From Humidesulfovibrio mexicanus (lineage in GTDB: Bacteria; Desulfobacterota; Desulfovibrionia; Desulfovibrionales; Desulfovibrionaceae), in contig NZ_FZOC01000003.1 in assembly GCF_900188225.1 (NCBI RefSeq), positions 124,001 to 188,000 of the forward strand: a stretch of DNA of 64,000 bases. Reading direction: 5' to 3'. A program made the position numbers and the translations under genes. The notes under the pieces are model-generated. The model worked only from the letters and a program-made list of their open reading frames with translations. It was not told the DNA's origin and ran no database searches. Of this stretch, positions 2,231 through 3,665 are shown piece by piece (positions within the stretch are counted from its first letter, which is position 1; every line of letters starts with the position of its first letter).

Positions 2231-3310
2231 CTACACCAGCGACAGGGGCTGTCCCGTGGGCAGGGCCTCAACCGCGCGGCCGATGGGCGCGGCCAAGTCG
2301 CCCGCCTGGGTGAGGATGGCCTGGGCCTGGACCGCAAGGTGCTCCGGCACGCCCAGGATGAGCCCGCCGGAGGTCTGGGCGTCAAAGGCCAGCGTGACGA
2401 GCAGCTCGTCCAGCCCAGGGGCCACAAGGGTGCGCGGCAGGTAGTGGTTCCGGTTCTGGATGCTCCCGGCCGGGATGAGCCCCATTGCGGCGAGGTCCAG
2501 GGCTTCGGGCATGAAGGGGATGTCGTCCAGGCGCAGCTCCGCGGTGACGGAGCTTGCCGCGGCCATTTCCAGCAGGTGTCCGCCCAGGCCGAAGCCGGTC
2601 ACGTCCGTGCTGGCCACAAGGCCCAGGGTGCGGATGGCCTCGGCCCCGGCGCGGTTCAGGCGCGCGGCCCAGCGGTGGATGAGCTCCTCCAGGCGGTCCG
2701 AGCCCGGCCGCCCCGCCTTGAGGCCGGTGGCCAGCACGCCGGTGCCGATGGGCTTGGTGAGCAGGAGCACGTCGCCGGGCCTGAGCCCCCGGTTGGTGGC
2801 CATGCGCTCCGGGTCCACCAGGCCGGACACGGACAGGCCGTACTTGATCTCCGGGTCTTCCACGCTGTGCCCGCCGCAGAGCACGGCCCCTGCCTCCTCC
2901 ACCTTGGACAGGCCGCCCTTGAGGATGTCGGCCAGCACGGCGGGGTCGGAACATTTTGCCGGGAAGCAGCAGACATTCATGGCCGCATACGGCTCGCCGC
3001 CCACGGCGTACACATCGGACAGGGCGTTGGCCGCGGCGATTTGGCCGAAGCGGAAGGGGTCGTCGACAACGGGAGTCAGGAAATCGACGGTCTGCACCAG
3101 GGCCTTGCCCGGCGGCAGACGCAACACCACGGCGTCCTCTCCACCGCCGCGCGGTCCGGAGAGGATTCTGTCGTCCCGGCCCAGGGTCAGGCCGGAGAGG
3201 ATACGCTCCAGGTCCCCTGGAGCAACTTTAGCCGCTCAGCCCGCGGCGCGCACGCCCTGGGTGAGGCGCGGCGACTGCGAGGCCTGCGGCTTGGAGGTTT
3301 CCATTGTCAT
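2231..3310 (-). CDS. selD: Selenide, water dikinase with selenocysteine at UGA
   Basis: SelD makes selenophosphate from selenide and ATP for Sec-tRNA and selenouridine. Reading from ATG 3310 (second ATG at 3304), codon 25 is TGA (3238-3236) in the context RAAG-U-AAK. This aligns with the catalytic GAGCGCK loop of SelD, so TGA is read as selenocysteine; the second Cys of that loop is Ala here and the catalytic Lys is kept. The frame then runs open to TAG 2231, giving 359 residues with VDFLTPVVDDPFRFGQIAAA and TDVTGFGLGGH, both typical of SelD. A stop lies two codons before ATG 3310, which fixes the start region. A conventional call starting at 3130 would lose the active site. Confidence 0.93.
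3205..3223 (-). promoter_or_regulatory. SECIS-like hairpin in selD
   Basis: Twelve bases after the TGA, an 8-bp perfect stem (GCTCCAGG / CCTGGAGC) closes on a GGA loop. Bacterial SECIS elements are stem-loops at about this distance from the UGA, with an apical G pair contacting SelB. Position and shape fit; the exact SelB contacts are inferred. Confidence 0.75.
3236..3238 (-). other. Selenocysteine codon TGA (codon 25 of selD)
   Basis: In-frame TGA, 24 codons after ATG 3310, followed by a hairpin and by hundreds of open codons that encode conserved SelD sequence. It stands at the place of the catalytic Cys/Sec of the family. Confidence 0.9.
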
Positions 3311-3311
3311 G

Positions 3312-3330
3312 GCCTATGCCTAGCATAGGC
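3312..3330. promoter_or_regulatory. Inverted repeat overlapping the selD ribosome-binding region
   Basis: GCCTATGC-N3-GCATAGGC, a perfect 8-bp inverted repeat that ends one base before the selD ATG. In RNA it would enclose the AGG-containing ribosome-site region. It could be a translational control hairpin or an operator; there is no direct proof of either. Confidence 0.45.
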
Positions 3331-3461
3331 GACCGCCACGGCCAAGGGGAGATTTGCATTTCGGCCATTAAGTGAATGAATGATCCGCCGATAAGACCAG
3401 CGACACAGGCACGCGTCATGCAGGGATCTGTCCCGCACAGCACCCCAACACGGGAGGCATC

Positions 3462-3665
3462 ATGATCAGACGCAGCTGCGCCGCCTGCGGACGGCCCATC
3501 AACCGCACCGACCGCTTTTTCGAGGCTTCCGACGGCACCCTGTGCCAGGACTGCCAGGCCCGGCTGGCCAAAGGCGTTTCGCTCCGTTTCGGGGGCTGCG
3601 CCCAGGCCGCCATGCCTCCGGTGTTCGCCCAGCTTCCGGAGCTGGCCCTTGGCGGACACCGCTAG
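3462..3665 (+). CDS. Small double-CxxC zinc-ribbon protein
   Basis: A 67-residue protein with CAACG at residues 6-10 and CQDC further on, the pattern of a treble-clef or zinc-ribbon fold that binds one zinc ion. A further single Cys lies in GGCAQ. A GGGAGG site stands six bases before the ATG, which supports a real gene. It is divergent from selD and convergent with the next gene; the two TAG stops overlap within one CTAG. I recognise no specific family; DNA, RNA or protein binding is the usual role of such small proteins. Confidence 0.6.
   Translation: MIRRSCAACGRPINRTDRFFEASDGTLCQDCQARLAKGVSLRFGGCAQAAMPPVFAQLPELALGGHR

Follow-up and report, generated by a model that had tools for sequence, protein, structure and literature searches.

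A UGA-containing selD gene with a bSECIS hairpin in Humidesulfovibrio mexicanus, and a possibly leaderless selD message in its genus

The DNA analyzed here, referred to as the window, is a 64,000-nt stretch of the Humidesulfovibrio mexicanus genome (contig NZ_FZOC01000003.1, positions 124,001 to 188,000). On its minus strand lies a gene for selenophosphate synthetase, selD, together with the features listed in Table 1. A first-pass annotation of the sequence had proposed that 24 codons, a TGA and the remainder of SelD share one reading frame and, indeed, translation of 2231-3310 gave a single frame of codons 1-24, the TGA (3238-3236) and 334 further codons. Since an in-frame stop occurs two codons upstream, no start further out than the ATG at 3308-3310 is possible in this frame. 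Under the standard code (table 11), the selD ORF begins at GTG 3130 and encodes 299 aa, so that the active site is lost, as the annotation had warned of an ordinary gene call. The UGA-extended product scored 326.1 bits against TIGR00476, the SelD equivalog HMM (cut-off 125), and two other SelD models scored below their cut-offs (NF002098, 276.7 with a cut-off of 299; NF010705, 134.7 with a cut-off of 291). Its top SelD chain in the PDB was 2yye (E 1.2e-60). The extended N-terminus aligned to SelD, as had been anticipated, with U25 opposite Cys17 and K28 opposite Lys20 of the E. coli enzyme (3u0o; numbering of the aligned chain). Hence the feature by which SelD proteins are recognized, an active-site Cys or Sec followed three residues on by Lys, is present as U25 and K28. 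Excerpts of PMC3956282 describe Cys17 of E. coli SelD as the selenide-binding residue and its Ser mutant as catalytically inactive.

Table 1. Features at the selD locus (window coordinates).
Feature	Position	Strand	Basis
selD, encoding selenide water dikinase (selenophosphate synthetase); 359 residues if the TGA counts as Sec	2231..3310	-	translation, TIGR00476, PDB 2yye
In-frame TGA, codon 25, predicted active-site selenocysteine, opposite E. coli Cys17	3236..3238	-	translation, alignment, conservation
selD ATG start	3308..3310	-	in-frame stop two codons upstream
bSECIS hairpin, 8-bp stem, GGA apical loop 3213-3215, 20 nt from UGA to loop	3205..3223	-	folding, conservation, published constraints
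Promoter-like block CTTGGC-N13-TATGCTA, 10 nt from ATG, genus-conserved	3321..3346	-	genus alignment, pattern search

Conservation of the UGA was followed among relatives. SelD was matched at E <= 0.001 in 108 of the 119 genomes searched, the window's own included, several of these matches being weak and to other families, and 90 SelD loci (again with the window's own) were compared. The active-site motif was found in 89 of them, with TGA in 88 and TGC in one (L094); this count takes in L105, where the motif was missed by a narrow search and recovered in a later reading. The ninetieth locus, L106, is cut off by a contig end and has no motif. The proposal that the TGA stands in place of the catalytic Cys was thus borne out by the count as well as by the alignment with E. 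coli Cys17. A draw across the phylum gave SelD matches at E <= 1e-30 in 228 of 247 genomes, and among the matches listed an in-frame TGA was present in all but G229, with an additional TAA in G201 and G294. The stretch ahead of the TGA, RLTQGVRAAG, was found in all 14 loci of the window's genus (the window selD plus L019-L031; probably Humidesulfovibrio). The UGA therefore has what is looked for in a selenoprotein, namely alignment to the Cys or Sec of homologues and conservation. Two loci stood apart. L104 (genome G111) keeps the TGA at its SelD motif, but its frame is disrupted, with stops soon downstream. L094 (G022) encodes a Cys-form SelD, and the hairpin considered below still folds after its TGC. 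PMC1794560 also reports SECIS-like structures following Cys codons.

The window's genome (3.52 Mb, 15 contigs, completeness 100) was searched for the selenocysteine machinery, which the first-pass annotation had expected to lie elsewhere in it. Results showed one match over the cut-off for selA, one for selB, and a tRNA-Sec of 86 bits that ARAGORN called tRNA-SeC with anticodon tca. A second tRNA-Sec match above the gathering score was set aside, being tRNA-Trp by ARAGORN. The gene order is selA, an aminopeptidase-like frame that we take to be an M18-like aminopeptidase, and selB; the tRNA-Sec gene is on the same contig at a separate place. With selA, selB, selC (tRNA-Sec) and selD all present, the gene set of a selenoprotein-making bacterium is complete. 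SelD itself gave one match only and, since just one selD was found in the genome, no Cys paralogue stands in for the Sec form. The suspicion that other UGA genes exist in the genome also proved right. Four formate dehydrogenase alpha genes scored over the cut-off, and two of the four contain a single internal TGA: L108 and L110 have UGA at the Sec site (ARIUHS), whereas L109 and L111 have TGC. None of the six matches to the NiFeSe hydrogenase family returned by the search had an internal TGA. Within the 64-kb window, a composition-based scan for in-frame TGA codons, with thresholds set loose enough to recover selD, kept 15 of 466 candidates, selD included; on inspection by eye the remaining 14 looked like ordinary gene ends or antisense frames, and none was convincing.

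An 8-bp hairpin beginning 12 bases past the TGA had also been predicted, and folding of 3190-3245 returned it. Its sequence is GCUCCAGG-GGA-CCUGGAGC; after a gap of exactly 12 nt (3235-3224), the 5' arm (3223-3216) and the 3' arm (3212-3205) form a perfect 8-bp stem around the loop. PMC13188914 gives four constraints on a bSECIS element: a loop of 3-9 nt with a G within its first two nt, a stem of 4-16 bp, a UGA-to-loop distance of 16-37 nt, and an MFE at or below -7.5. The window hairpin agrees with all of these (loop GGA, 3 nt; stem 8 bp; distance 20 nt; -14.8 kcal/mol, computed on a 27-nt segment). An Rfam search of the window at gathering thresholds gave no family match. Against dinucleotide shuffles the 56-nt fold stood out only slightly (z -1.43, matched or bettered by 14 of 200 shuffles), and none of 500 synonymous-codon variants of the window hairpin reached its pairing or its energy.

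The same comparison, with 500 synonymous-codon variants each, was performed on 87 Sec-type loci (84 distinct sequences), leaving out L104 for its disrupted frame, L094 as a Cys form, and L106, which has no motif. The -7.5 energy limit was reached by 86 of the 87, at least 7 of the 8 stem pairs were formed in 80, and the energy beat 95% of the synonymous variants in 78 and failed to do so in 9, counts that are not to be read as probabilities since related sequences are not independent. Mean hairpin energy was -12.99, vs. -6.00 for the variants. Compensatory changes were seen in the stem: at the outermost position G-C (41 loci) alternates with C-G (15), T-A (7) and T-G (7), leaving 17 of 87 unpaired, and the loop-adjacent pair, formed in 83 of 87, is mostly G-C (75), with A-T in 6. 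These results indicate that the hairpin is kept beyond protein constraint. The columns of the outer pair, 15 and 33 from the UGA (70 of 87 paired), are both first codon positions, so that the choice of amino acid there may be influenced by RNA pairing. When 54 nt from the UGA were folded, the window gave an MFE structure that competes with the hairpin and pairs the nucleotides immediately following the UGA. It was shared by four other genus loci (L025, L029, L030, L031) and, outside the genus, the 54-nt fold of L044 also differed from the bSECIS hairpin. The bases right after the UGA, paired in the competing fold, should lie in the ribosome during decoding. The 54-nt folds and the modest shuffle z-score tell against the bSECIS reading.

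With the frame, the homology, the kept UGA, the kept hairpin and the full machinery all observed in this analysis, the minus-strand segment 2231-3310 is almost certainly a gene for a Sec-containing selenophosphate synthetase. Actual insertion of Sec, and the enzyme activity of the product, we infer from the known pathway. In this pathway, SelB with Sec-tRNA(Sec) would bind the hairpin just past the UGA and decode the UGA as selenocysteine at the catalytic position of SelD. The finished enzyme would convert selenide and ATP to selenophosphate, and SelA would use this for Sec-tRNA(Sec), including the Sec needed by SelD itself. A near-cognate tRNA (Trp or Cys) might conceivably read through the UGA in place of Sec-tRNA, and the TGC homologue L094 suggests that Cys is tolerated at the position; however, the presence of tRNA-Sec (tca), SelA and SelB and of a bSECIS-conforming hairpin after the UGA makes such readthrough highly improbable. 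Still harder to credit is a TGA that acts as a true stop, through pseudogene formation or sequencing error, with a working protein made from GTG 3130: table 11 does leave a 299-aa ORF open from there, but against it stand the TGA shared at this very codon by 88 of the 89 loci with the motif (the window's among them), the conserved stretch before it in all 14 genus loci, the hairpin retained beyond protein constraint, and the Sec machinery of the genome. That selD is read through its UGA as Sec is scientifically expected, and its consequence is chiefly for annotation, where a stop-based gene call drops the active site of an enzyme on which selenoprotein synthesis depends.

Alignment of the 14 genus loci at the selD ATG revealed a conserved block upstream, with the consensus CTTGGC-N13-TNTGNTA-N10-ATG, exact in 13 loci and with a variant -35 in one. 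Between -60 and -1, 13 or more of the 14 loci had the same base at -57, -36 to -31, -17, -15, -14, -12 and -11; pairwise identity over the 60 upstream columns was moderate (median 0.52, range 0.37-0.72). The TNTGNTA part lies exactly 10 nt from the ATG in 14 of 14, the ATG having been picked by requiring TGNTA at -15; the chosen ATG is the sole in-frame ATG in 11 of the 14 and the outer of two in L001, L019 and L020. In L028 the ATG is 21 codons before the UGA, not 24, and the block shifts along with it. Because the motif was drawn from selD loci themselves, its presence there is by construction, and what a pattern search of 24 genomes adds is its absence elsewhere: the exact pattern occurred once each in 13 genus genomes, always at selD by coordinates. 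It was absent from the other 11, which comprise G011 (a differing -35), G008 (no selD match) and nine genomes of other genera. The backward control gave 0 matches in all 24 genomes, and a looser pattern had a single match in the window's genome, at selD.

A sigma-70 consensus scan found no promoter, which counts against a promoter reading of the block; the window hexamers are poor by the E. coli consensus, the -10-like one being TAGGCA. A sigma-54 reading of CTTGGC...TGC was dropped, its GG-to-GC distance being too long when compared with the consensus spacing for sigma-54. In the window, a perfect 8-bp inverted repeat, GCCTATGC-3-GCATAGGC (3312-3330), overlaps the -10-like site. It was considered as an operator and rejected, the full repeat being absent, by eye, from the 13 genus relatives, with a partial version in L020; the pattern search made alongside, with 3 mismatches allowed, also matched 34 of 100 shuffles and is not a significance test. 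Beside selD, a small divergent ORF (3462-3665, plus strand) encodes two CxxC pairs and appears zinc-ribbon-like by eye.

Taking TTGGCN as the -35 and TANNNN as the -10, the block has a 17-nt spacer, an extended -10 TG, and six bases between the -10 and the ATG. If the block is a promoter, this spacing means that transcription would begin at the A of the AUG. A C occurs at -1 in 12 of 14 genus loci, which fits a common start-site preference. SD-like pairing was weaker than -5 kcal/mol in 10 of 14 genus loci vs. 16 of 73 other relatives (75 non-genus loci less L043 and L081, which had no start codon), and in 4 of 42 gene-like ORFs of the window, under a scoring that chose the best start for each gene and so favours finding an SD. 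Pairing reached -5 in the remaining four genus loci, at the ATG in L019, L023 and L031 and at a GTG two codons upstream in L027. Judged from these sequence features, there is an even chance that the selD mRNA is leaderless in the genus, with a genus-wide promoter and transcription from the A of the AUG.

The block could instead serve as a regulator's operator, or as a promoter whose transcripts start elsewhere, a reading that we hold plausible though somewhat doubtful. It would accord with the poor match of TAGGCA to the E. coli consensus and the failure of the consensus scan, with the overlap of the window block and the inverted repeat, and with the SD-like pairing that persists in 4 of 14 loci. 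The fixed distance of TNTGNTA from the ATG in 14 of 14, L028 included, speaks against it, as do the 17-nt spacer and the -1 C, both suited to transcription from the first base of the ATG, the 10 of 14 loci whose SD-like pairing falls short of -5, and the lack of the full repeat in the 13 relatives (partial in L020). Among the titles and abstract openings searched, which took in few subscription papers, we found no literature on leaderless selD. If the message is leaderless, the enzyme that supplies selenium to every selenoprotein would itself be made by leaderless initiation, its mRNA opening with just 24 codons before the UGA (21 in one species), and SelD synthesis could be tied to the state of the ribosome rather than to SD strength. 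The predicted message would offer a natural test case for SelB-dependent recoding without a leader or SD.

Leaderless bacterial mRNAs start at the AUG or no more than a few nt from it and carry little or no SD, with a -10-like element about 6 nt before the ATG. The selD locus resembles them, since its -10-like element ends about six bases before the ATG and a weak SD occurs in 10 of the 14 loci of the genus; it differs in that the selD case is predicted from sequence, with the exact motif found only at selD, in 13 of 24 genomes. The protein is homologous to E. coli SelD (3u0o) over residues 12-349 and shares its active-site position and Lys, but has Sec25 where the E. coli enzyme has Cys17. 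FdhA and SelD are given as the most widespread bacterial selenoproteins in parts of PMC1794560, and Table 3 of that paper lists SelD as a selenoprotein in both Desulfovibrio vulgaris and D. desulfuricans. Set alongside this published listing, the window shows the same pairing of SelD with a Sec-containing FdhA, and its Sec-SelD is a correct but ordinary case of what has long been known in its bacterial group.
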